The position numbers and the translations under genes are program-made. A stretch of DNA of 64,000 nt from Betaproteobacteria bacterium (GTDB lineage: Bacteria > Pseudomonadota > Gammaproteobacteria > Burkholderiales > SG8-41): NCBI GenBank assembly GCA_900299145.1, contig OMIN01000012.1:1-64000 (forward strand). The letters are read 5' to 3'. Positions 1 through 11,732 of the stretch are shown here, in pieces. Numbering within the stretch: the stretch's first letter is position 1; the number at the start of each line of letters is the position of its first letter. The notes beneath the pieces are model-generated. The model saw nothing but the letters and a program-made list of their open reading frames with translations, had not been told where the DNA came from and did not search any database.

Positions 1-50
1 TGCCTGAGCTTTGCGACCGCCTGCTCCGGGCCATGCTTCTTGTTCGCCAT
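1..50 (-). CDS. IS3-family transposase OrfA, first 16 codons (runs off the window)
   Basis: Read on the minus strand, an ATG at 50 opens a frame giving MANKKHGPEQAVAKLR, which resembles the N-terminus of OrfA proteins of IS3-family elements (basic residues, then a PEQ-(I/V)-(V/A)-KLR helix). An AAGGAG ribosome binding site lies at 58-63, seven bases upstream. The rest of the gene, OrfB and the far inverted repeat lie beyond the window. The left end of the IS should fall near 70-95, where the integrase-like sequence to the right begins. The match is short, so the IS subgroup cannot be named. Confidence 0.55.
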   Translation of the reverse strand, partial: MANKKHGPEQAVAKLR

Positions 51-577
51 TCGTAGACTCCTTCTTCCAAGTTGAAAAATACAACATTCAACCTGGCACA
101 GAAAAAGCCAGTCAGGTCACCGGGGCACGATTCCGAGAAATTGCGACCCTGAAATGGTCGCAAATTGATTTCGAAAACCAAGCAATCGCCCTGTGGCGAT
201 CAAAGGTCAAGAACGAATCGATCCTCTACATGACTTTAAGGGTTAAGATCACACTCGAAGCACGGCAGAAAGCAAGAACGTCCGAATACGTCTTCACCAA
301 TAGATCCGGTGATCACAAAGGATACACCGGCACCACCCTCGCACGGGCATTCAGAAGGGCTGGATTACCGGACTGCTCCCCACATACCCTTCGCCATACG
401 CATGCAACCCGGCTCATCCAGAATGGCATGACGATCTATGAGGTCAAGGAAATCCTTGGGCATTCAGACATCCGGACAACAATGCGGTATGCCCATCTTG
501 AGAAAAAGGCGGTATTTCGAAAGGCTAAAGACCTGATAGAAAAACTAAGCGGCAATGCAGCCTCAGAAACCCCCTAA
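11..577 (+). pseudogene. Tyrosine recombinase (integrase), catalytic domain only, 5' end replaced by an IS
   Basis: The frame encodes the C-terminal catalytic domain of a phage-type integrase: Arg40 in TGARFREI, a lysine around 65-67, HTLRHTHATRL with His125 and Arg128, His151 in LGHSDI and the nucleophile Tyr160 in MRYAHL. All catalytic residues are present, but the roughly 150-200 residues that normally precede them (arm-binding and core-binding domains) are missing. An in-frame stop at 5-7 and the OrfA start on the opposite strand show that the first 25-30 codons come from the IS and its leader. It is therefore probably a remnant cut by insertion. It may once have driven integration of the element into the nearby tRNA-Gly gene. 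A separate function for the catalytic fragment cannot be excluded. Confidence 0.75.
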
Positions 578-930
578 ATCCTCGTTTAAACCGCCATTGC
601 GGAATTGGGAAAATCGCCCCCTTGCTCACCCCCCATCAGGTATTTTCCAAATCCGTAAAACACTGTTTTTGGACCTGCCCTCAGTAAATCTTTAGCGTCT
701 CCACCCATATAAACCCAAGACGAATTTGAATAATCCCGGGGTGGATGACCCATCCTTAGCCTGGGATTTCCAGACAACGCAATTCCTGTTTTACGTGTTT
801 TCTCGACCCGATAAATAATGGCGACACTGGTGGTTTGCAGCGGGACAGGAGTCCGAAGCACTTCCCCTACCCATGCAAGCCATCTCTGTCACCACACTCA
901 CGGACTCGAGTGAAAATTTAGGGGAACTGA
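578..930. other. 353-bp gap before the replication gene; no confident gene
   Basis: The interval between the integrase remnant and the primase-helicase holds one minus-strand frame (586-861, 91 codons) with no recognisable domain and no convincing ribosome binding site, so it is not called. A promoter for the gene at 931 should lie here. No clear iterons, DnaA boxes or terminator were recognised by eye. Confidence 0.4.
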
Positions 931-3900
931 ATGGACACCAAAAATACGGAAGTTGTTGTTGCAATCCACCAGCACATCATCAACAAGCACCAAGGCGGCG
1001 ACACCCGTCTCTTTGCTGAGGGTTGGCTTAATGTAGAGTTGCTGATTGATGATTTTGCAAAATGCATTAACGAAGGATGGGCATATTGCGCCCAGATGTC
1101 CGGGACACGCAAGACACAGAATTTCCTCCGCTGCAATATATCATCGGTCGACATTGATAGTGGAATGACAATGGAAGAAGCGTTATCGCACCCCTTTTGT
1201 CAGTCTCACCTCTCACTGGTTTATCGGACATTTTCTAATACCCTTGAGAATCCCCGGTTTCGCTTGGTGTTTGTATTGCCAAGGCTAATTGAATCGGCTG
1301 TGGAGCAAGTCGCTGTCAACAATGCCTTGAATATCAAGTTTCACGGTGACCCCAGCACCAGAGATGCTGCAAGGATATTTTTCGGGAATGCTGACTCCGA
1401 ACCAATGGTATTTCCACGGATGATCACTGAGGAAGTGCTTGATCAATTGCTTGAAATCGGCAAGCCGAGAATCAGCGATTCGCACAACGACTCCGGCACA
1501 GCAAGTCGGCAGTCAGCAATATACCTAGACCCCGATCTTGTCATCGAGACCGAGAAGCGGGGAAAGATATTACTTAAAGACATCAAATCAAAACTCTCAG
1601 TCAAATGCCCGTTCCACATTGACCAACGTGCCAGTGCATTTGTTTCGACGACGAATTCTGGAGGTAAGTTCCTGCACTGTGTTGTCTGCCGGACAACGCA
1701 TTGGATGAAAGGGTCAAAAGCCCCTCACCTTCCCGATTTTGTTGACATGCTACGGGAAAGTAATAAAGAGATTGCTGAAGGCAGCTGGAACCACACATTT
1801 GCACGTTTGGAATTTAAGCCTCTTGTGGCATTTGACTCGAGAGACAGAATTGAATTTTTGAACAAAAAGTTTTTCCAGCTCGACGCATTGCCCAGTGGCA
1901 TTACACTGATTCGCAGCCCCAAGGGAACTGGAAAGACAACGACACTCCTGCAAATATTGGATCCTCTTGTTCGAAGTAACTATGCAAAGATCACTCTTGA
2001 GCAGTTTGAAAATCAAGATGCTGATGAGCCGCCCCGTAGCCTTGAGACTGACTACAAGGTGCTGTTGATTGGTCACAGGCAAGCACTGATACGGGATTTG
2101 TGCAAAAGGTTGAATCTCTTTTGCTATCTCGATGATTGTGATGATTGGTCATCCTCAGATCGGCATAGAAAGAGGCGCTATGGCGTTTGCCTTGATAGTT
2201 TGAAGAAGGTTGCATATTGCCAATACGACTTGATCATTATCGACGAGAGTGAGCAAGTTTTCTCCCACTTCATGTCGAAGACCATGAGGGACCCCGAAAA
2301 AATATTCAACTTTCTAGGGGATATTATTCGGACTACGCCTGCGGTTGTTGCTCTCGATGCGGATCTTGGTTGGACAACCTTCCTTACGCTTGGGAGGATG
2401 AAAAGGTTAGAGTCGATTACAAAGTCGAATTTTTCACAACTGCATTTTTATATTAATGAGTATAAGCACCCGGCAAGAAAAGTTGAAATTTTTGATTCCA
2501 AGGCGCACCTGATTGCAATGATGATTGTCGACTTGTATCTTGGAAAGAAAATCTTTGTTGCATCGAATTCAAAGACTTTGACTGAGAACCTCGCTGAAAC
2601 AATACAGCGGGAGTTTGCTGGGCAGGATCCCAAGAATGTTATTGCAATTACATCGGATAACTCAAATACAAAAGAAATTCAGGATTTTATTCTCAACATT
2701 AAGACCCAAGCCAAGAAGTTTGATGCGATTCTGTCATCGCCCTCCCTGAACACCGGATTGGACATCACGTTCCCTAATAATGAAGAGCATTTTGATACTG
2801 TCTACGGTTTTTTTGAGGTGCTAATCAACACGCACACGGACATTGACCAACACCTTTCCCGTGTGAGGCATCCAAAGAATGTTCGTGTTTGGGTGTCTAG
2901 CAGGAAATTTAACATGTCGACCAGTGTCACCACGATCAAAACCGATTTGCTACTTGACCACATCGTTGCAAACACGGCTATTGGCAGAACACCGATACCC
3001 GCTGCAGACCTATCGGAAATTGGGGATCCCTTCCTCAATATGGCTTCTGTGGTTGTCTCTCAGCAAAGACACTCAAAGAATAATCTGCGTGACAATTTTA
3101 TTGCCTACAAGATTCAAGCAGGATTTGAGGTGATTCATGTCAAAAGGGATGATCTTATTGCAGATGAAGGAAAGTTTTTTTACAGGGAAGGCAAAAGGGC
3201 TGCCAGGGAATCATTCGCCCTGTCGCTGATAGACAGTCGACCGATAGGCAAGCAACGTGCCGATGAAATTGAAGAATCAATCAGCGCTAATGAAGAGGTT
3301 TCGCTTGCTGATAAAAGATCGTTGTCGAGGTCCCGGATTGAAGCATTCTATAGAGCGAAGATCACTGAGAACTTGATTGCTGTAGACCGTAATGGACTTT
3401 ATCGCAGCGCCGTCAAAAGCTTTGAGTCGTTATTTGACCCTGAGAATATTAAGTTGGGCAAAGATATATCCAATTATCTTTGGAAGGCTGCTACCGAGAT
3501 TGATCAACGGATGTCACGCCTAAGCTTGGTAATGAAACTTGAATTGGGATTAAACGAAAACATGAAGGCAATCCTTATCAGAGAATTACTCAAGAGGACT
3601 CCGGTTTTTGATGGCAAGCAGTTTTTAACGACAGTGCACTATACGGCTGATGATCTTTCTGAACTGGCTAGAACAGCGAAGAAGCACAAACGTCTGATAG
3701 AAGGTCAGGTTGGAATCACCGTTAGAGGTGATGTAATGAAGAAGCCGACGCAATTTCTTGGTGATCTTCTTGGCACAATTGGATTGCGCCATGAAGTTGT
3801 AAAAATGTCAAAGAAGGACGACACCAAGATTTACGTCTACTCTCTGAAAGATGAGTCACTACAGCAGGTCACTGAAATCACCAGACGGAGAAGAGAAATT

Positions 3901-4092
3901 GCCGATGGCTGGAAATTTGTTGATGACCTCAATGGAATAAGTCCCCAGGATGAACCCTATGATAAGGGTGTAATTTCACATTATGGAATTCCTTGGGATA
4001 AATATTTCAAGTGTGTTTATGCAGATATGGTCGCCAACGAAAAGTTGAGGAAATTTAAGGCAATACCCCCTGAGGATCAACTTCCCATTTAA
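931..4092 (+). CDS. Primase-helicase replication protein of the integrated element
   Basis: A 1053-residue protein that looks like a self-contained replication initiator. Residues about 65-160 resemble an archaeo-eukaryotic-type primase core: the acidic pair is in SSVDIDSG (Asp74, Asp76), followed by FSNTLENPRFRLVFVLPR and ARIFFGN. A zinc-binding module follows (Cys226, His229, Cys250, Cys253). From about 320 a helicase core is visible: Walker A SPKGTGKTT at 329-337, DES at 438-440 as motif II and QHLSRVRHP at 640-648 as motif VI, the order found in origin-binding SF2-type helicases. The last 350 residues are unrecognised. Primase plus helicase in one chain is known from plasmid replication proteins such as CyRepA1, but membership is not proven. 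The start follows TTAGGGGA at a good distance. Base composition is much lower in G+C than in the chromosome. Confidence 0.8.
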   Translation: MDTKNTEVVVAIHQHIINKHQGGDTRLFAEGWLNVELLIDDFAKCINEGWAYCAQMSGTRKTQNFLRCNISSVDIDSGMTMEEALSHPFCQSHLSLVYRTFSNTLENPRFRLVFVLPRLIESAVEQVAVNNALNIKFHGDPSTRDAARIFFGNADSEPMVFPRMITEEVLDQLLEIGKPRISDSHNDSGTASRQSAIYLDPDLVIETEKRGKILLKDIKSKLSVKCPFHIDQRASAFVSTTNSGGKFLHCVVCRTTHWMKGSKAPHLPDFVDMLRESNKEIAEGSWNHTFARLEFKPLVAFDSRDRIEFLNKKFFQLDALPSGITLIRSPKGTGKTTTLLQILDPLVRSNYAKITLEQFENQDADEPPRSLETDYKVLLIGHRQALIRDLCKRLNLFCYLDDCDDWSSSDRHRKRRYGVCLDSLKKVAYCQYDLIIIDESEQVFSHFMSKTMRDPEKIFNFLGDIIRTTPAVVALDADLGWTTFLTLGRMKRLESITKSNFSQLHFYINEYKHPARKVEIFDSKAHLIAMMIVDLYLGKKIFVASNSKTLTENLAETIQREFAGQDPKNVIAITSDNSNTKEIQDFILNIKTQAKKFDAILSSPSLNTGLDITFPNNEEHFDTVYGFFEVLINTHTDIDQHLSRVRHPKNVRVWVSSRKFNMSTSVTTIKTDLLLDHIVANTAIGRTPIPAADLSEIGDPFLNMASVVVSQQRHSKNNLRDNFIAYKIQAGFEVIHVKRDDLIADEGKFFYREGKRAARESFALSLIDSRPIGKQRADEIEESISANEEVSLADKRSLSRSRIEAFYRAKITENLIAVDRNGLYRSAVKSFESLFDPENIKLGKDISNYLWKAATEIDQRMSRLSLVMKLELGLNENMKAILIRELLKRTPVFDGKQFLTTVHYTADDLSELARTAKKHKRLIEGQVGITVRGDVMKKPTQFLGDLLGTIGLRHEVVKMSKKDDTKIYVYSLKDESLQQVTEITRRRREIADGWKFVDDLNGISPQDEPYDKGVISHYGIPWDKYFKCVYADMVANEKLRKFKAIPPEDQLPI

Positions 4093-4106
4093 TCCGGCAT
4101 GAACCT

Positions 4107-4163
4107 GGGGATAACCCTTTTGATCTTTTATAGAATCTATAAAAAACCCTTACTGTTATCCCC
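4107..4163. repeat. Nested inverted repeat just after the replication gene
   Basis: GGGGATAAC at 4107-4115 is matched by GTTATCCCC at 4155-4163, and inside it TTTTATAG (4126-4133) is matched by CTATAAAA (4137-4144) across a three-base loop. ATAACCC recurs at 4191-4197. The position 14 bp behind the primase-helicase stop suits a terminator or a replication-associated structure. The inner stem is A/T only and lacks a following T run, so a simple rho-independent terminator is not a good fit. Confidence 0.6.
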
Positions 4164-4279
4164 TCCTCCGAATTTTAGTCCATATTGTAAATAACCCCAG
4201 TCTTAATAAAAAAATCCCGTTGAATGACAAAGGGAATCCATCAATTAGGGAATGCAGGAGTGTCCGTCACACTTTATAG

Positions 4280-4456
4280 TTACTTAGCGGTGTGTTCGAT
4301 GGAAAGCAGTGTGCCTGCATGAATTTCGTTTGGTGCCTTGGCATTTGTGGTCCCAGAATCGATCACGGAAATCACCGGCTCACTATCTGCTTTCTTTTGT
4401 TTCATTCTTTGGGCACAAAACATCTTGAACGTGAGAAGTTTTCTTTTTGGCTTCAT
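4280..4456 (-). CDS. 58-residue basic protein of the integrated element, unknown function
   Basis: The ATG at 4456 has a perfect AGGAGG (4465-4470 on the plus strand as CCTCCT) with eight bases of spacing, which decides this start over the longer frame beginning at 4543. The product begins MKPKRKLLTFKMFCAQRMKQKK, so its first 22 residues are strongly basic, and the remainder is acidic to neutral. No domain is recognised. It runs against the replication gene and lies in the same low-G+C DNA. Size and position would fit an excisionase, copy-control or DNA-binding accessory protein, but nothing in the sequence proves that. Confidence 0.6.
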   Translation of the reverse strand: MKPKRKLLTFKMFCAQRMKQKKADSEPVISVIDSGTTNAKAPNEIHAGTLLSIEHTAK

Positions 4457-4877
4457 ATAGGCTTCCTCCTGTTGAATGTGTAGAAGGTATTTATCAGACC
4501 AGCAAATACCAACAACACTTCGAAGCCAATATTCAAATAGCATTTTTTTATTATCAGTTCACAATCCCCACTGCCTCTCGAAGCCGGGTCTTATCAAGCT
4601 GATGATAGGGGCTTGGTACACCGGTGATTTAACAGGGAATTCTCTGAATCCACACTTGAAGTGGTAGAGAACTGTGGCGACTTAGGATCCAATCACGATC
4701 TGTCAGCCAATGACATGCCTAATGACAAACACATATTTTCGATGATCGAGGTGGGATGTGATTGGTAACACCCATTCCAGCTACCGCTATTGCAGCCTTG
4801 ATTTGGCGAACAACGACTGGAATCACGGCGGAAGCAAACGGTAGGACCGATGGGGACGCTAGCCTCGACTCACAGTG
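4457..4877. other. 421-bp gap at the right end of the element; no gene seen
   Basis: Between the small basic gene and the broken tRNA no reading frame has a ribosome binding site or recognisable product. Apart from the last base pairs next to the tRNA, no repeat or second tRNA piece was found on either strand. The promoter of the small gene must lie here. Such an interval next to an att junction could contain recombinase arm sites, but none is evident by eye. Confidence 0.4.
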
Positions 4878-4914
4878 TTGGGAAGCTGCCGTTCTACCAT
4901 TGAACTACACCCGC
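4878..4914 (-). tRNA. tRNA-Gly(CCC), 5' half only, cut in the anticodon loop
   Basis: Read on the minus strand from 4914 the sequence starts GCGGGTGTAGTTCAATGGTA and continues to GCAGCTTCCCAA. This reproduces acceptor strand, D arm and anticodon arm of a bacterial tRNA-Gly with anticodon CCC, the glyU type of enterobacteria. After the anticodon loop the expected GCTGC stem, T arm and CACCCGC acceptor strand are absent and the sequence changes to that of the integrated element. It cannot fold into a tRNA as it stands. It is best read as an attachment-site remnant; an intact copy would be expected at the other end of the element, outside the window. Confidence 0.8.
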
Positions 4915-4987
4915 GCGGCCTGATCAGGTTTGTGATTTTACCACTGCGGCTCGCCGGCATCGCGGCCAACGCGTGTACCGCACGGCG

Positions 4988-6538
4988 TCAGGATTCAACC
5001 TTGTCGACGGTAAAACGCACGCGCGCACAGGCGTCGGTTTTTTCCACCACGTTCAGCAATTGCAATGCCAGCACGCGATCGCCAAAGCTCATGTGCACGC
5101 TGGTCTCATCGTCGTAGCGCAAGGGGTCGGCCACCAGCAGTTCAATTTCCGCCTGCTCGGCCGGGTTCGCCGTAAGCAGCACCGCCTTGTCCATCGGCAT
5201 GCGCTGGGTGATACGCAGCGGCTCCTCGGCGTAATCTTCGCGCATCACGCGCACCGCCTGCGCGCTGCGGCTTAACACCTGTACACCGATTTGCTGCTGT
5301 CCGCCGTCAAGCCGTTCCACCCGCCGCACCATGCCCACCGCCCAATCACCGGTGGCCTGATTTTCAATGCCAGCGACGTTGCCCACACTCACCCAATCCG
5401 CATTCACCGCGGGAATCACCGCGCCGAAGCCGCCCTCGCTCACGTCGTTGGCGAGCCAGCTTTCGGCGTTGGATTTTTCGGTAAAATCGAACGGGTCTTC
5501 CTCGACATGCTCCAGCACGGCGACGATGTGATCGAAGCCCGGCACTACGGTTAGGCGCGCATTGGTTTTTTGCCGCTCGTGCGCACGCTCCGCCGGCTTA
5601 CCCGACCAGTCGCGGTGTATCTGCGACAGCACCGGCGTCAAAAACTCCAGATCGATGGGATAGGTAAACCCCAATTCCGGCGGCGTCTTGCCCGTATCCT
5701 CGATGTACGCAAGCGCCGTGCACAGCGCATCTACCGCGGCACCCGCGCCAATGTAAATACGCTCGGCGTTTGCCTCCGGCGCGCGCGACAGCAACGCCGG
5801 CACGCGCGGATTCTTCAGATCGAACGCGTGCGTGCAGCCCGCGCCGGGCGTGCGCGAAAGCACAAAGTGCGAGGCATGGCGGCTGACGATGAACGTCGCC
5901 AGATCCTGCGCGGGCGGCTGCAGGTTGTCGGTGGAAATCACCGACTGCAACAGCACCTTCAGAAACTCCCGCTTGATGGTGGAAGTTTCCCCGGGGTAAA
6001 TCAGCATTTCCTCGTCGATGTTTTCCGGCTCGATGTAGCTGTACAGATTCGCCAGCCCCATCCAGATCGAGGGTGCAGGCGCAGCATAACGTAGCCGCAG
6101 CCAATGCAACTGGCGGCGCAGCGCACGCATGGCGCGTCCGACAGACACGCGTGCCGGCTTGCGAAAGCCCGCGGCGGCGGCGGGATCCGCCGCGTAGTGC
6201 TGCACGCACAGCACGTAGGCCGTGGCAAGTTCGTTCCAGCAGTTATAGGCGCCATTCCACAAGTCGCTTTCACGCTGCTTGGTCTGGCGCGAGGTTTGCA
6301 GATATTCACGCAACAACGAGCGGGTGTGATCCACCGTCGCCGCATCGAGCAGACAAATGTCGTCGTAGCGCTCTTCAAGGGTCATTGAATCCGCGCAGTT
6401 GATGGCGTCGAGCGCTTCAGTGATCTGCACCGCCGCCGCAACCGGGTCGTCCACCGGCAGGCCCGAGATGACATCGTGCGGTTCACGCAGCAACGCCATG
6501 CCGTCCGCGGTTTTCTGAGTCCCCATCCAGTTCAGCAT
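4988..6538 (-). CDS. Conserved betaproteobacterial protein, possibly PilZ-like at the C-terminus
   Basis: The start at 6538 is preferred to an upstream one at 6580 because GGAG lies nine bases before it; it gives 516 residues beginning MLNWMGTQKTADG. There is no signal peptide or membrane segment. The N-terminal two thirds look helical, with a block ending in RRQLHWLRLRYA. The last 110 residues, around GDWAVGMVRRVER and QIGVQVLSRSAQAVRV, recall PilZ-type beta barrels that bind cyclic di-GMP, but the RxxxR signature is not obvious, so this is only a suggestion. I recognise it as a type of uncharacterised protein found in betaproteobacteria and cannot assign a role. It is followed on the same strand by the broken tRNA-Gly. 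Confidence 0.7.
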   Translation of the reverse strand: MLNWMGTQKTADGMALLREPHDVISGLPVDDPVAAAVQITEALDAINCADSMTLEERYDDICLLDAATVDHTRSLLREYLQTSRQTKQRESDLWNGAYNCWNELATAYVLCVQHYAADPAAAAGFRKPARVSVGRAMRALRRQLHWLRLRYAAPAPSIWMGLANLYSYIEPENIDEEMLIYPGETSTIKREFLKVLLQSVISTDNLQPPAQDLATFIVSRHASHFVLSRTPGAGCTHAFDLKNPRVPALLSRAPEANAERIYIGAGAAVDALCTALAYIEDTGKTPPELGFTYPIDLEFLTPVLSQIHRDWSGKPAERAHERQKTNARLTVVPGFDHIVAVLEHVEEDPFDFTEKSNAESWLANDVSEGGFGAVIPAVNADWVSVGNVAGIENQATGDWAVGMVRRVERLDGGQQQIGVQVLSRSAQAVRVMREDYAEEPLRITQRMPMDKAVLLTANPAEQAEIELLVADPLRYDDETSVHMSFGDRVLALQLLNVVEKTDACARVRFTVDKVES

Positions 6539-6764
6539 ACTTGCTCCGAACACTCGATTGCCCGTGGGAAATTCTAACAAGAAATCAGATATTTACCTAC
6601 CCGAATCGGGGTGGCCCGGTTGTTTTGCCAGCGACGGCGCTGTTCAGACCCGCTAAAATGCAGGTTGCAAGCGGCATCGTCTGGTGTTTTCATGGCATTT
6701 GGCGAAGCCCATTACCGCCATCGTAAACACAACCGCAGTGCCGAACCGCTGCACCACCACGTAA

Positions 6765-6968
6765 TTGATTACACTTTCGGTCAATGGCGAAAGCCGCCAG
6801 TTTTCATCGCCGCTCACCTGCGCCGGGCTGATTGCCGCGCTGGGTTTGGCCGGCAAACGCGTGGCGCTTGAACGCAACGGTGAGATCGTGCCGCGCGGGC
6901 GACATGCCGACGAGGCGCTCGCCGATGGCGACAAAGTCGAAATCGTGGTGGCCGTTGGCGGCGGCTGA
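6765..6968 (+). CDS. thiS: Sulfur carrier protein ThiS
   Basis: A 67-residue ubiquitin-like protein ending in AVGGG; the terminal Gly-Gly is adenylated and converted to a thiocarboxylate that supplies sulfur for the thiazole ring of thiamine. The VNGES segment and the DGDKVEIVVAVGGG tail are typical. The start is a TTG that follows an in-frame TAA directly, so no upstream extension is possible, and no strong ribosome binding site is seen. The gene is followed after 30 bp by thiG, its partner. No TPP riboswitch (CTGAGA and ACCTGATCTGG-like blocks) was found in the 226 bp upstream. A second frame, starting at 6692 and overlapping the start of thiS, is Arg/His-rich and not called. Confidence 0.9.
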   Translation: MITLSVNGESRQFSSPLTCAGLIAALGLAGKRVALERNGEIVPRGRHADEALADGDKVEIVVAVGGG

Positions 6969-6998
6969 TCCCCTCATCAAGGTTTCCAAGGACACAAC

Positions 6999-7802
6999 AT
7001 GACCGCGCATGAACATCTCGATCCACTGGTAATCGGCGGCAAAACTTACACCTCGCGCCTCCTGGTGGGCACCGGCAAGTACAAGGATTTCGCCGAGACC
7101 CGCGCGGCAGTCGATGCCAGCGGCGCGCAAATCATCACCGTTGCCATCCGCCGCACCAACATCGGCCAGAACCCCAACGAGCCGAGCCTGCTGGAAGCAT
7201 TGCCGCCGTCGAAATTCACCATGCTGCCCAACACCGCCGGCTGCTACAGCGCCGACGAAGCGGTGCGCACGCTGCGCCTTGCGCGCGAGTTGCTCGACGG
7301 TCATGATCTCGTCAAACTCGAAGTACTCGGCGATCCGAAAACCCTGTACCCCAATGTCGTCGAAACCATCGCCGCTGCGAAAACCCTGGTGAAAGACGGC
7401 TTCAAGGTTATGGTTTACACGTCTGATGACCCGATCATCGCCAAGCAGCTCGAAGACATTGGCTGTGTCGCCGTGATGCCACTGGCCTCGCTGATCGGTT
7501 CCGGCATGGGCATACTGAACCCGTGGAATCTGCAAATCATCATCGAAAACGCGAAAGTGCCGGTGGTGGTCGATGCAGGTGTGGGCACGGCCTCCGACGC
7601 GGCGATTGCCATGGAACTGGGTTGCGACGCCGTGCTGATGAATACGGCGATTGCCGCCGCGCGCGACCCGGTGCTGATGGCGGGCGCCATGAAAAAGGCG
7701 GTCGAAGCCGGCCGGGATGCCTTCCGCGCCGGCCGCATGCCGAAGAAGCTCTATTCCGCGTCACCGAGTTCGCCGACCGGCGGCATGATCGGAAAGCCAT
7801 AA
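6999..7802 (+). CDS. thiG: Thiazole synthase ThiG
   Basis: Cytoplasmic TIM-barrel enzyme that joins 1-deoxy-D-xylulose 5-phosphate, dehydroglycine and the ThiS thiocarboxylate into the thiazole phosphate of thiamine. The 267 residues contain the Schiff-base lysine in [10 protein letters not shown] (Lys106), [15 protein letters not shown] and the phosphate-binding [13 protein letters not shown] and [10 protein letters not shown] segments. Length and start (ATG with AAGG upstream) are normal for the family. It directly follows thiS, and trmB comes next in the same direction, an arrangement common in betaproteobacteria. There is no sign of degeneration. Confidence 0.97.
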
Positions 7803-7807
7803 AATAA

Positions 7808-7829
7808 ATAATAAAAACAAATAGTTACG
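7808..7829 (+). repeat. A/T-rich dispersed repeat, copy 1 (between thiG and trmB)
   Basis: Contains ATAAAAACAAATAGTTACG just behind thiG. The A-rich strand matches the direction of both flanking genes. It lies in the reading frame that runs into trmB and may affect where trmB is started. Confidence 0.8.
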
Positions 7830-7871
7830 AAACGATACACTATAGAGACCTCACGCCACATCCGCAGCTAC

Positions 7872-8513
7872 GTGCTGCGCCAGGGCCGCGTCTCCAGCGC
7901 GCAGCAGCGCGCCTGCGAAACGCTGCTTCCCCAGTATGGCGTGGCATTTTCCGAAACACGGCTTGACCTTGCCCGATGCTTTGGCCGCGCTGCGCCGAAG
8001 ATTCTGGAAATCGGTTTCGGCATGGGCGAAACCACAGCGGCCATCGCCGCCGCGCAGCCGGAGAATGATTATCTGGGCATCGAGGTGCACACGCCCGGTG
8101 TAGGCAATCTGCTCAAGCTGATTGATGCGGGGGCATTGACGAACGTGCGCATCATCCAGCACGACGCGGTAGAAGTGCTGCGCCATATGATCGCGCCGCA
8201 AAGCCTCGACGGCATACACATTTTTTTCCCCGACCCGTGGCCGAAAAAGCGCCATCACAAACGGCGGCTGATCCAGCCACTGCTGGTGGACACGCTGACG
8301 GAAAAACTCAAACCTGGCGGGTATCTGCACGCCGCCACCGACTGGCACGAATACGCCGAACAGATTCTCGCGGTGCTCAGCGCCTCGCCAGCGCTGCAAA
8401 ACACCGCAGCGGGTTACGCGCCACGCCCGGCTTATCGCCCGCAAACCAAGTTTGAAGCGCGCGGCCTGCGGCTGGGCCACGGCGTGTGGGATATCGTATT
8501 CCGGCGGCGGTAA
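7872..8513 (+). CDS. trmB: tRNA (guanine-N7-)-methyltransferase TrmB
   Basis: Methylates G46 in the variable loop of tRNAs using S-adenosylmethionine. Visible motifs are the SAM-binding [17 protein letters not shown], the catalytic-site [15 protein letters not shown] and the C-terminal TKFEARG. The first usable codon is GTG at 7872, but the family normally starts earlier: the codons before it read RHIRSYV, which fits the usual N-terminal RPIRSYV. No ATG, GTG or TTG exists upstream before the stop at 7812-7814, so the gene either starts late or uses a rare codon such as ATA or ATC. An A/T-rich dispersed repeat occupies the place where a normal start would be expected. Confidence 0.93.
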
Positions 8514-8517
8514 ATCT

Positions 8518-10659
8518 TCAGCCGCTGTTGGCGGCCGGTACGTCGGCGGCACCTTCGTCGGCTTTTGCCTGCGCGCGTGCCGCCAGAAATTCCCGCAACG
8601 CCTTCGGATTAAGCGGCCGCGAGAAAAAATAGCCCTGAATTTCGTCGCAACCGTTGTCGCGCAAAAAGCCCAACTGCTCTTGTGTCTCAACGCCTTCGGC
8701 AATCACTTTCAGATCGAGCGCGTGTCCCAGCTGTATCACCGCGCGCGCGATGGCCGCGCCGTCGGCCGAGGAATTCACCTCACGCGTGAACGATTGATCT
8801 ATCTTGAGGCGATCAATCGGAAAACGCCGCAGATAACTCAAACTGGAATAGCCGGTGCCGAAATCGTCAATGGCCATTTGCAGCCCGAGGCTTTTGAGTT
8901 CCTTTAACTTGGCCACCACCGCGTCGACGTCCTTCATCGCCAACCCTTCGGTGATTTCCAGTTCCAGATGTTTCGGATCAAGCCGCGTGCGCGCGAGAAT
9001 TTCCGCCACCTTGAGAATCAGCCGCTCGTCGCGAAACTGGCGTGGCGAAAGATTCACCGCGACGTGCCCCACTGAAAAACCCTCGTCGCGCAACGCCCTG
9101 GTTTCACGGCAGGCTTCCTCCATCACCCAGCCGCCGATGGACACGATCAAGTCGGTTTCCTCGGCCACCGGGATGAAACGTCCCGGCGACACCATGCCCA
9201 TGTCCGGGTGCTTCCAGCGCACCAGCGCCTCCATCCCGATGACGCGGCCGTCGCGCGCGCTCACCTGCGGCTGGTATTGCAGTAGCAACTCGCCGTTCTC
9301 GACGGCGCGGCGCAACTGCGCCTCCATGTAAAGCCGTTCCTCGGTAAAACGGTCGCTGTCGGCCGAGTAAAAATAGTAGCAGTCACCGCCCAGCGTGCGT
9401 GCATGGCGCATGGCCGTATCGGCGCGGCGCAACAGCGTTTCCGGATCGGGGCCGTCGTTCGGAAACAGTGCGCAGCCGATGCTGCAAGTCACCACCACTT
9501 CCTGCGTGCCGATCATGAATGGCTCACGCACGGCCGCCAGCACACGCTTCATCGCCTGCGCGGCGCCGCCAAGGGTGTCAATATCGATCAGCGTCATGGC
9601 GAACGAATCTGCACCCAGCCTCGCCACCGAATCATGATCGCGCAACGCACCGCGCAGCCGCTGCGCAACACCCTTTAACAACTCGTCGCCCGCGTCGTGA
9701 CCGAGACTCTGATTCACGTACTTGAAATGGTCGACGTTGACGACGAAAGTGGCGACCATGCGCTCATAGCGCTGCCCGTAGGCGATACCATGACGCAAAT
9801 GATCGACCAGCAATGGCCGGTTGGCGACACCGGTTAGGCTGTCGTGCGTGGCCCGCTGCACCATTTCATCAAGATAATGGCGCGTCTGCGTGAAGTCGGT
9901 GATGGTGCCCACCAGCGTGGACGATGGTTCGCCGCCCGCGCCGGGCAATGCCACACCGCGCTCGGTAACCCAGCGCGGCGTACCGTCCGGCGAAATCACG
10001 CGATACTCAACGTTGTAGCTGTCGCCCCTGGCCAGCTGATTTTGCACGTCCTGATACGCCATGGACACGTCGTCGGGTGAAATAATCGATGCCCACGAAC
10101 GAACTGCACCCTCCGTGAAATCAGCCGCCGGATAACCCGTCAGGCCCAGGCTGCCTTCGCTGACAAACTGCATACTCCAGTCTTCAGCCATCCGGCGCTG
10201 GTAAACCACCAGCGGCAGATGGTCGATGAGCGTGTCGAGCCGCCGTTCGTTATCTCTGATCCGGATATCGCGCACCACCTGCTGCGTCATATCAACGGCC
10301 ACGCCCAACGTGCCCGCGACACCGCCGTTGTTGTCGAGCAGTGCGATGCGGTGCGTGGCGTAATGCCGCGATTCGCCCGACGGACTGAATAAAAAGAGCT
10401 TGCCGTGCCGCGCCTTGCGCGTGGTGGCGACCTCACCATCTTCCTGCAACGACTGTTCGGCAAGCTCCAGCGGAAACAGGTTGAAATCGGTGACGTCGAT
10501 GACGTCAATGTCATCGCCGCCGGTCTGAAACAGACACATCTCACGAAACGCGCGATTCACCACCACATAGCGATGCCCGGCGTCCTTCACCCACGCCGGA
10601 TCAGGCAGGGTTTCCAGAAAACCATCGGAAATAACTTGCGCGAGCGTCTGTATGTCCAT
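8518..10659 (-). CDS. PAS-PAS-GGDEF(degenerate)-EAL cyclic di-GMP phosphodiesterase
   Basis: A 713-residue protein with two PAS-type sensor domains (about 1-130 and 140-265), a GGDEF domain (270-440) and an EAL domain (450-700); no membrane segments, so cytoplasmic. The GGDEF site reads GADSF at 349-353, which should abolish diguanylate cyclase activity. The EAL domain is intact: MEALVRW (EAL at 477-479), NLSPRQF, EITEG, DDFGTGYSS at 598-606, KIDQSF and AEGVET. The likely net activity is hydrolysis of cyclic di-GMP, with the inactive GGDEF domain perhaps acting as a GTP sensor as known for other such hybrids. It converges with trmB four bases away. Signal and output are unknown. Confidence 0.93.
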   Translation of the reverse strand: MDIQTLAQVISDGFLETLPDPAWVKDAGHRYVVVNRAFREMCLFQTGGDDIDVIDVTDFNLFPLELAEQSLQEDGEVATTRKARHGKLFLFSPSGESRHYATHRIALLDNNGGVAGTLGVAVDMTQQVVRDIRIRDNERRLDTLIDHLPLVVYQRRMAEDWSMQFVSEGSLGLTGYPAADFTEGAVRSWASIISPDDVSMAYQDVQNQLARGDSYNVEYRVISPDGTPRWVTERGVALPGAGGEPSSTLVGTITDFTQTRHYLDEMVQRATHDSLTGVANRPLLVDHLRHGIAYGQRYERMVATFVVNVDHFKYVNQSLGHDAGDELLKGVAQRLRGALRDHDSVARLGADSFAMTLIDIDTLGGAAQAMKRVLAAVREPFMIGTQEVVVTCSIGCALFPNDGPDPETLLRRADTAMRHARTLGGDCYYFYSADSDRFTEERLYMEAQLRRAVENGELLLQYQPQVSARDGRVIGMEALVRWKHPDMGMVSPGRFIPVAEETDLIVSIGGWVMEEACRETRALRDEGFSVGHVAVNLSPRQFRDERLILKVAEILARTRLDPKHLELEITEGLAMKDVDAVVAKLKELKSLGLQMAIDDFGTGYSSLSYLRRFPIDRLKIDQSFTREVNSSADGAAIARAVIQLGHALDLKVIAEGVETQEQLGFLRDNGCDEIQGYFFSRPLNPKALREFLAARAQAKADEGAADVPAANSG

Positions 10660-10700
10660 GTTTGCGCACTGGCGCGCCGGGTAGTACCGAACTGCCCCGG

Positions 10701-10750
10701 CGCTATTCGGCCGTATTCGACCCTATTTGACCTTATTCGACCCTATTCAA
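10701..10750. repeat. Tandem repeat, five 10-bp units, at the stop of a Bug gene
   Basis: Five units in register, CGCTATTCGG, CCGTATTCGA, CCCTATTTGA, CCTTATTCGA and CCCTATTCAA. The last unit carries the TAG stop of the Bug gene at 10743-10745. The array fills most of the gap between two minus-strand genes. Confidence 0.85.
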
Positions 10751-11732
10751 CCCGCAGCCCCGCGTCCTTGATAAGTTTGCCCCAGCGCGCGCTTTCGCCC
10801 GCCATAAAGGCGCCGAACTGTTCAGGCGTACTGGACACCGCCGCCACAGCCAATTCGGCCAGCCGCGACTTCACGTTTTGCGTTGCGAGCGCCTTGACCA
10901 AGTCAGCGTTCACCTTGTCGATGATCGGACGCGACACGCCCGCCGGAAACAGAATGCCCCACCAATTCACAGCGGCAAAACCCTTCAAACCGGCTTCGGC
11001 CAGCGTCGGCAATTCTGGCGTGAACGGCCAGCGCTGCTCACTGGTTACCGCCATGGCGCGCAACTTGCCGGTTTTCATCGCCTGCATCGCGGGCACCGCG
11101 TCGGAAAACATGGTGGTGATCTGCCCACCCATGAGGTCGGTAATCGCCAGTGCGTTGCCCTTGTACGGCACGGTGATCAGCTTCACGCCCGCAAGTTGCT
11201 GGAACATTTCACCGGCGAAGTGCGACATACTGCCCGGGCCGCTGGTGCCATAGGTCAACTCACCGGGTCGCTGTTTGGCCAGCGCCACCAGTTGCGCAAT
11301 GGTGGTCACCGGCATGGTCTTGGGCACCACCAGAATATTGGCGGAAATGGTGATGCGCGACACCGGCGCGAAATCCTTCTGCCAGTCGTAATTCACCTTC
11401 GCCAACAAGGGCTTCGCCACCACCGGGCCGAAGTTACCGAGCAGAAACGTATAACCATCGGCCGGCTGACGCGAAGCGTATTCCATGCCGATGGAGCCAT
11501 CGGCCCCCGGACGCGATTCCACCAGCACCTGCTGCCCCCAGTATTCGGACAGCTGTTGGCCGATGATGCGCGCCATCACATCGGAACTGCCACCCGCGGG
11601 ATAAGTGACAATAAAGCGCACGGTCTTGTTCGGATAGTTTTGCGCGTGAGCCGTGCCGTAAATCGGGCCGAACACCCCAAGTACCCCGGCCGCGGCGGCC
11701 GCGCTCAACGTCAATTTGATCAACCGATTCAC
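10743..11732 (-). CDS. Bug/TctC-family periplasmic solute receptor (1)
   Basis: Periplasmic binding protein of the tripartite tricarboxylate family; members bind carboxylates, amino acids or aromatic acids in a closed venus-flytrap cleft and hand them to TctAB or act as sensors. The preferred start is the GTG at 11732 with AGGAGG immediately upstream, giving a signal peptide ending GTAHAQ before NYPNKTVRFIVTYPAGGSSDVMAR. ESRPGADGSIGMEYASRQPADGYTFLLGN and VPYKGNALAITDLMGGQI are the family's ligand-loop regions. The longer frame to 11834 has no leader-like sequence. No tctA or tctB is nearby. It lies between the EAL protein gene and hemW on the same strand. Confidence 0.9.
   Translation of the reverse strand: MNRLIKLTLSAAAAAGVLGVFGPIYGTAHAQNYPNKTVRFIVTYPAGGSSDVMARIIGQQLSEYWGQQVLVESRPGADGSIGMEYASRQPADGYTFLLGNFGPVVAKPLLAKVNYDWQKDFAPVSRITISANILVVPKTMPVTTIAQLVALAKQRPGELTYGTSGPGSMSHFAGEMFQQLAGVKLITVPYKGNALAITDLMGGQITTMFSDAVPAMQAMKTGKLRAMAVTSEQRWPFTPELPTLAEAGLKGFAAVNWWGILFPAGVSRPIIDKVNADLVKALATQNVKSRLAELAVAAVSSTPEQFGAFMAGESARWGKLIKDAGLRVE

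Follow-up and report, generated by a model that had tools for sequence, protein, structure and literature searches.

The window analyzed here, a stretch of 64,000 nt from the genome of a betaproteobacterium (contig OMIN01000012.1), carries near its left end a gene designated rep (931..4092, + strand) and, beginning 14 bp after the rep stop codon, a 57-bp palindrome (4107..4163). The rep reading frame is intact, with an ATG start, 1053 codons and zero internal stops, and its 1053-aa product joins an archaeo-eukaryotic primase (AEP) domain, a zinc module, a UL9-like superfamily 2 (SF2) helicase and a C-terminal domain in a single chain. A fragment of a tyrosine recombinase gene precedes rep, and the 5′ half of a tRNA-Gly(CCC) gene follows the palindrome. 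We conclude that Rep probably initiates replication of a small plasmid-like element of the integrative kind. An initial annotation of this DNA had proposed a primase-helicase fusion bearing recognizable motifs and acting as the replication protein of an integrated element; the fusion is confirmed by the intact chain, by the AEP fold and by a 330-bit match to the NCBIfam family CyRepA1 (NF042913), and the role in an integrated element is most likely correct, given the adjoining recombinase fragment and tRNA site.

The central part of the protein (residues 320-740; 1888..3150, + strand) was assigned as an SF2 helicase core of the UL9/CyRepA1 type from two family profiles and from the predicted structure. 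Profile searches for origin-binding helicases and for CyRepA1, which the initial annotation had suggested, returned matches above the respective cutoffs: NF042913 aligns to residues 322-954 with its 330 bits against a cutoff of 200, which places Rep in that family, and Pfam Herpes_ori_bp (PF02399) scores 41 bits against a cutoff of 20, which identifies a UL9-related SF2 helicase. The protein also matches phrog_4913, annotated as 'replication', with 199.7 bits. We compared it with relatives that are 25-34% identical, using an alignment of 14 relatives (A2), every one of which also matches NF042913, and another of 12 rows (A3). The motifs comprise VDID (residues 73-76), FSNT (101-104, including Asn103) and C226/H229/C250/C253 in the front part, and the P-loop SPKGTGKT (329-336), DESEQ (438-442) and RVR (644-646) in the helicase. 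Their key residues are invariant or nearly so in A2 or A3, with the exception of the primase motif II position. The invariance of DESEQ was partly selected, the relatives having been fetched with the patterns [IV]I[IV]DESEQ and D[THV]V[YF]GFF[ED]; the AEP fold of residues 1-180 and the 330-bit family match provide support independent of this selection.

The front of the protein (residues 1-180; 931..1470, + strand) is an AEP domain by the fold of its predicted structure. A model of residues 1-270 (pLDDT 85.6) was matched by Foldseek to the S-2L PrimPol (6zp9) with an E-value of 1.6e-5, the sole match below 0.001. VIA-align superposed the same model on S-2L PrimPol over 141 residues (Z 10.9, root-mean-square deviation (rmsd) 3.1) and on RepB′ over 140 residues (Z 9.1, rmsd 3.5), with other AEPs reaching Z-scores of at most 6.0. 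Among the 50 VIA-align matches listed, we take all but two (pMV158 RepB) to be AEP-type primases or polymerases, judging from their titles. It was the fold that decided this assignment: no Pfam primase family was found over the N-terminus of Rep or of the 14 A2 members, and an N-terminal alignment gave no convincing match among Protein Data Bank (PDB) sequences (best E 0.24). This region is covered by two PHROGs, of which one bears the name DNA primase and the other has no known function. Residues 18-162 are also about 30% identical to Nostoc plasmid proteins that carry the name PriCT-2. The AEP motif I (hhhDhD) is represented by D74 and D76, both invariant in the 12 rows of A3, and the acidic residue of motif III by the invariant D140 or the nearly invariant D145, either of which could fill this role. 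The zinc module that follows (C226-P-F-H229 ... C250-x-x-C253; 1606..1689, + strand) is invariant in A2, with C250 and C253 nearly invariant in A3, and is matched by the CHC2 zinc finger family below its cutoff (13.2 against 24.9 bits).

At motif II, where AEPs carry sxH, Rep reads FSNT, with asparagine at the histidine position. This position could be read in 16 of the 24 rows with an AEP-profile match. Histidine occupies it in 13 of the 15 readable proteobacterial proteins, Rep included, and asparagine in Rep and in L034 (loci with relatives or sites are numbered with the prefix L, genomes with G, and contigs of the window's own genome with C). Of the remaining rows, L041 and L044 are degenerate, and the motif II pattern could not read L028, L042, L046, L064, L065 and L067, of which L064 and L065 show the histidine in a separate reading. 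This position is reported to be Gln, Tyr, Arg or Lys in other AEP families, and a motif IV arginine has been suggested as a possible compensation for the relaxed motif (PMC5862659). Because most relatives keep the histidine and motif II is relaxed in these described families, Asn103 is best regarded as a local variant and not as a family mark, and the earlier suggestion that it signals a different family or mechanism is not upheld. The substitution probably weakens nucleotide binding, and the window copy may prime poorly or lean on a host primase. The related protein at L043 has no AEP part and starts near a contig end; its helicase motifs are kept or mostly kept.

About 350 C-terminal residues had initially been left unrecognized, and this part of the chain is now explained. 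NF042913 extends to residue 954, a C-terminal profile built from the relatives of Rep matches the pSYSA CyRepA1 protein (E 2.7e-15), and alignments to herpesvirus UL9 reach model residues 985 and 999. The C-terminal domain (residues 741-1000; 3151..3930, + strand) is predicted to consist mainly of helices and to contain a helix-plus-hairpin unit at 939-972, is conserved in the family, and is a candidate for the origin-binding part. In the model of the whole protein (pLDDT 77.1, pTM 0.66), confidence is low at residues 1001-1033 and 1045-1053. The top Foldseek match of this model is UL9 of herpes simplex virus 1 (E 2.9e-18), and VIA-align pairs residues 259-999 with residues 21-839 of a UL9 chain (Z 20.3, 560 residues, rmsd 15.5, 14% identity), a second UL9 entry giving Z 19.7. 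The next VIA-align match has a Z-score of 13.8 and ends at residue 743, and all 48 matches listed below UL9 end by residue 761. Structure prediction, also proposed initially, thus returned both an AEP front and a UL9-like whole chain. At the sequence level, a profile of the 14 relatives detects UL9 chains by hmmsearch across part of the helicase (best E 3.4e-13); the C-terminal profile by itself gave no convincing match among PDB chains (best E 0.17). The kinship of the helicase with UL9 accordingly rests on sequence and fold together, and that of the modeled C-terminal domain is supported by one structural alignment to UL9. Giant-virus proteins, too, are aligned by Foldseek, over as many as about 1,200 columns when gaps are counted, the named matches being 12-17% identical.

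Rep has a single match in its own genome, a match in one of 59 other genomes of the set of relatives (G021, of the same family), and a match at an E-value of 1e-20 or better in one of 398 other genomes of the order (G269). At the latter locus (L028, 227-3375), the primase-like and helicase parts lie on two overlapping frames, because of a natural split or of a break in the frame. Scans of genome contigs and viral contigs with the single protein returned zero relatives, and alignment-based scans returned 35 loci in genome contigs and three in viral contigs. Among plasmid records, 409 match the protein, only one of them over at least 80% of its length, and a DNA-level search with window positions 1-4980 yielded one plasmid record, a tRNA match.

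Comparison of these loci points to an exchange of the primase module in front of a common helicase. In the pSYSA CyRepA1 protein the helicase is preceded by DUF3854 (residues 145-271), and in phage VHML by a Toprim domain; DUF3854 has itself been suggested to be Toprim-related (PMC10079941). DUF3854 was matched neither in Rep nor among the 23 families found in the 14 A2 members; a single member has a Toprim_2 match (E 0.058). Because it lacks DUF3854, a module outside the reach of the NF042913 profile, Rep is filed under the helicase domain family and not under the full-length, pSYSA-like CyRepA1 type. The AEP-bearing branch was found in alpha- and betaproteobacteria. According to profiles built from the branch, the AEP front, helicase and C-terminal part occupy one frame in the window and in L009, L029-L032 and L034-L040; in L033 and L042 they are divided between two frames, and in L006 one frame holds the AEP front with the helicase and another the C-terminal part. 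The AEP profile gives weak matches to L041, L044 and the three viral contigs L064-L066, and none to L043 or L045. Cyanobacterial loci (L047-L062 and L068) combine the helicase and C-terminal part with DUF3854.

A tree of 32 helicase domains, from which nine Nostoc rows presumed redundant and the short helicase matches (including the pieces of L033 and L042) were left out, places the AEP and Toprim groups apart, with weak support for its deep forks. The fork leading to the proteobacterial set has support of 80/72, or 86/91 without the Beggiatoa row, and the starred sets, of up to half of the rows, never include the window. Within the branch, the window groups with L006, L029 and L030 (94/88), and L032 with L035 and L031 with L034 form sister pairs.

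Several described systems share parts of this architecture. Replication proteins of the VHML/phiKO2 type (phrog_4913) have the same helicase region, at 23-25% identity over 43-48% of the query by tblastn; VHML differs in its Toprim front and in a putative protelomerase gene nearby. We presume that N15 RepA is a member of the phrog_4913 type and that the VHML prophage is linear. Members of CyRepA1, whose type protein is Slr7037 of pSYSA, have in common with Rep the helicase, the C-terminal part and, probably, a role in plasmid replication; the pSYSA gene is needed for autonomous replication, as found by genetics in Synechocystis (PMC9978351), and its product carries DUF3854 where Rep has the AEP domain and zinc module. 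The expectation of a little-described replicon type is fair, yet the family is a named one with published genetics. The outcome that was to refute the initial reading, a strong match to a common and well-studied family, holds in part: the match is strong, yet that family is recent and the pSYSA protein differs in its N-terminal module. As in Rep, an AEP domain is followed by a UL9-related helicase in the all3500-type AEPs of bacterial mobile elements (PMC5862659), and a table of PMC1594570 lists primase-UL9-like fusions for asfarviruses and mimiviruses, which are viruses of eukaryotes. UL9 itself resembles Rep in its SF2 helicase and, by structural alignment, in its C-terminal part, and consists of a helicase and a DNA-binding domain without a primase (PMC12543377). 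The AEP-UL9 fusion is thus already known, and what is new here is the palindrome; a literature search, full texts aside, found no published account of an AEP-type CyRepA1 branch or its palindrome.

The palindrome consists of 9-bp outer arms, GGGGATAAC and GTTATCCCC, separated by 39 bp, with an inner pair of inverted 8-bp arms lying 10 nt from the outer arms on each side and an AT-rich middle. It is a candidate for a replication origin or Rep-binding site. As single-stranded DNA it folds with a z-score of -4.8, equaled by none of 200 shuffles, and the sites of several relatives also fold strongly. The pattern GGKGATAAC N33-41 GTTATCMCC occurs in one of 369 genomes of a sample of the class, at the window site only, and is found upstream of rep exactly in L006 and with one mismatch in L029. 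L030, which belongs to the same tree group, has no GGKGATAAC box, and other groups carry boxes of their own: GGTGCwAAC in L032 and L035, and GGACAAC in L031, L033 and L034.

Because such a palindrome is unremarkable by itself, the case for it rests on recurrence. We used a site rule, set after looking at the sequences, of exact 9-bp inverted arms 28-47 bp apart within 300 bp of rep. Ten of the 19 loci of the branch contain such a site, against 0.8 expected from shuffles, and random windows drawn from the same loci do so in 37 of 480 cases, equivalent to about 1.5 of 19. Outside the branch the rule finds sites in two of 22 loci, near the chance expectation of 1.0; this outside set omits L060, L063 and L067, consists largely of cyanobacterial loci (16, many of which are closely related), and has AEP-type matches in L046 and L064-L066. 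An earlier rule found six of 19 against 0.65 expected and missed L029 by one base; its sixth site (L036, 5456) has a different box. Palindromes of 70 bp in L037 and 60 bp in L030 escape the rule, and in L041 and L043 no palindrome exceeded shuffles in the rep flank. Upstream of rep in G021 lies a 77-bp palindrome with imperfect 16-bp arms (L009, 10293-10369) whose score was reached by none of 40 shuffles and whose arms are too far apart for the rule. A 76-nt repeat occurs three times downstream of rep in L032 (10112-11106), at intervals of about 460 bp; every copy has inverted ends and a middle common to all three, the second copy being 78% and the third 63% identical to the first. L034 has two copies of a 52-nt palindrome (9932-9983 and 10870-10921), 98% alike and 938 bp apart. 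Positions 1-5000 of the window contain no tandem repeats (iterons). A likeness of the palindrome to the UL9 box, which begins with GTT and ends with CAC (PMC12543377), is too short to count.

On its left side, rep adjoins the C-terminal part of a tyrosine recombinase (integrase) gene (119..577, + strand; PF00589, E 1.1e-26), whose product shares 46% identity with residues 227-371 of the rep-adjacent integrase of G021. This gene is cut by the end of an insertion sequence that carries the start of a transposase frame (1..119, - strand) and that we take to be of the IS3 type; the contig also begins at base 1, and copies of these 119 bases, 98-100% identical, lie at or 2 bases from the ends of contigs C145, C47 and C18. 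The N-terminal part of the integrase was not found in the assembly, and a search for the missing left part with the G021 integrase and the end of contig C102 returned zero linking contigs. Four other integrase matches in the genome, 26-42% identical and in frames of their own of 308-423 aa, are by sequence probably other recombinases. With its integrase broken, the element is probably trapped in this genome and copied passively with the chromosome.

On the right side, the border between element and chromosome lies at the 5′ half of tRNA-Gly(CCC) (4878..4915, - strand), where the sequence departs from the tRNA in the anticodon loop. Contig C102 ends in an intact tRNA-Gly(CCC) (L007, 5911-5990) with a 6-base upstream flank unlike the chromosomal flank in the window, so that its promoter would now come from the element. 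A tRNA-Gly(CCC) pattern occurs exactly once in 10 of 14 genomes of the genus, the window's own included, and not in the other four. Since sibling tRNA loci match on the C102 side in nine of nine cases and on the window side too in five of nine (within the gene at 5.0-6.4 kb in four cases and within thiG in one, L015), sequence comparison indicates that the element splits this tRNA site and brought its own 5′ half, the join itself lying outside the assembled contigs. The first 5 kb of the window have a GC content of 0.43-0.50 per kb, against 0.51-0.67 beyond. Known RNA families gave no match in positions 1-7000 up to an E-value of 1, and there is accordingly no support for a tRNA-gene intron or a known RNA at the palindrome. 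Beside the tRNA, positions 4988-6580 (- strand) encode a 530-aa protein without a Pfam match, and similar DNA occupies the corresponding position in four of the nine sibling tRNA loci.

Related elements appear to use other sites as well. In L037, 48-nt direct repeats at tRNA-Arg(CCG) enclose an 11.1-kb stretch (409-11598) that carries rep at 6998-9907 and a 197-aa recombinase at 10702-11295 and is probably a whole element. L037 was the one region of seven in which direct repeats of at least 22 nt span rep, the regions extending about 7 kb to either side so that longer elements escape. One half of a gene matching ChlI/Mg-chelatase, presumably comM, lies near rep in L029, L030, L038, L041 and L044, with homology stopping near the same codon; homology also stops near that codon in L039, and L040 has a long comM-like frame beside rep. 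The element group may therefore have a second integration site in this gene.

Family membership, AEP fold and integration stand at the level of sequence and model, and other explanations of the primase, the palindrome and the protein as a whole have to be weighed. Rep could be a genuine initiator whose AEP domain is dead through the His-to-Asn change, the element being a decaying relic. The rarity of asparagine at motif II, the interruption of the integrase by an insertion sequence, and the relatives L041 and L044, in which the primase motifs are visibly degenerate and the helicase motifs intact or mostly intact, favor such decay, whereas the intact 1053-codon frame, the retention of D74, D76 and D140, and the described AEP families with other residues at motif II (PMC5862659) speak against it; we regard a dead primase in a decaying element as somewhat less likely than not. 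A role in defense or repair is, short of a PADLOC search, very improbable. AEP and SF2 helicase domains do occur in repair and defense systems, but the families matched by Rep belong to plasmid and phage replication, and recombinases lie near many of its relatives. The palindrome, in turn, could be an operator for autoregulation, a terminator or a recombination site in place of an origin, and its position bears on the first two. In L006 and L029 it closely precedes rep, as would suit an operator and not a rep terminator, but downstream in the window and in L032, L034, L035, L036, L042 and L044, which speaks against an operator. The strong single-strand folds could be shared by terminators; none was called at the palindrome, a result of little weight because the scan covered loops of 3-8 only. 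Tyrosine recombinase core sites have a spacing of 6-8 bp, which arms some 32-47 bp apart do not fit. Taken together, these alternatives to an origin keep a real but minority claim.

Several further points count against Rep acting as an initiator on this palindrome. The window palindrome alone is not rare, since four of 40 flank shuffles reach its score and nine of 200 hold such a site. The GGKGATAAC pattern was written from the window and L006, which leaves L029 as the sole independent near-match; both site rules were set after sites had been seen, five of the six sites under the earlier rule having been seen beforehand; and two hits, a plain hairpin in L033 and one within the comM-like gene in L040, probably have no relation to the others, so that eight of 19 remain. 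The variable position of the site and the replacement of the motif II histidine by Asn103 point the same way. In the UL9 alignment, the rmsd of 15.5 means that the domains sit at different angles, and beyond residue 761 the likeness depends on two UL9 entries. The rest of the element, which may hold further genes, is absent from the assembly, and origin function, priming and excision are inferred.

In the reading that we favor, replication would begin on the excised element in the form of a circle. Rep would bind the two inverted boxes of the palindrome through its C-terminal domain, the helicase would open the AT-rich middle, and the AEP domain would lay the first primer for extension by a host polymerase, in a theta-type start proposed by analogy with pSYSA. 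More tentatively, proteobacterial integrative elements of this kind might hold a complete miniature initiation system of the UL9 type, with a primase, a UL9-like helicase and a UL9-like origin-binding domain acting on a palindrome of paired inverted boxes whose middle is AT-rich in the window, and with boxes (GGkGATAAC, GGTGCwAAC, GGACAAC) that co-evolve with Rep. If the proposal of a complete system is true, herpesviruses and giant viruses would have in it a bacterial counterpart of their origin systems, and possibly a source of them. For the family, the comparison indicates that a single kind of replication helicase is combined with either of two unrelated primase modules, a Toprim-type module in cyanobacterial plasmids and phage VHML and an AEP module in the proteobacterial branch. 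The element would also provide a compact bacterial system in which a UL9-type initiator could be tested, its candidate origin measuring only 57 bp.

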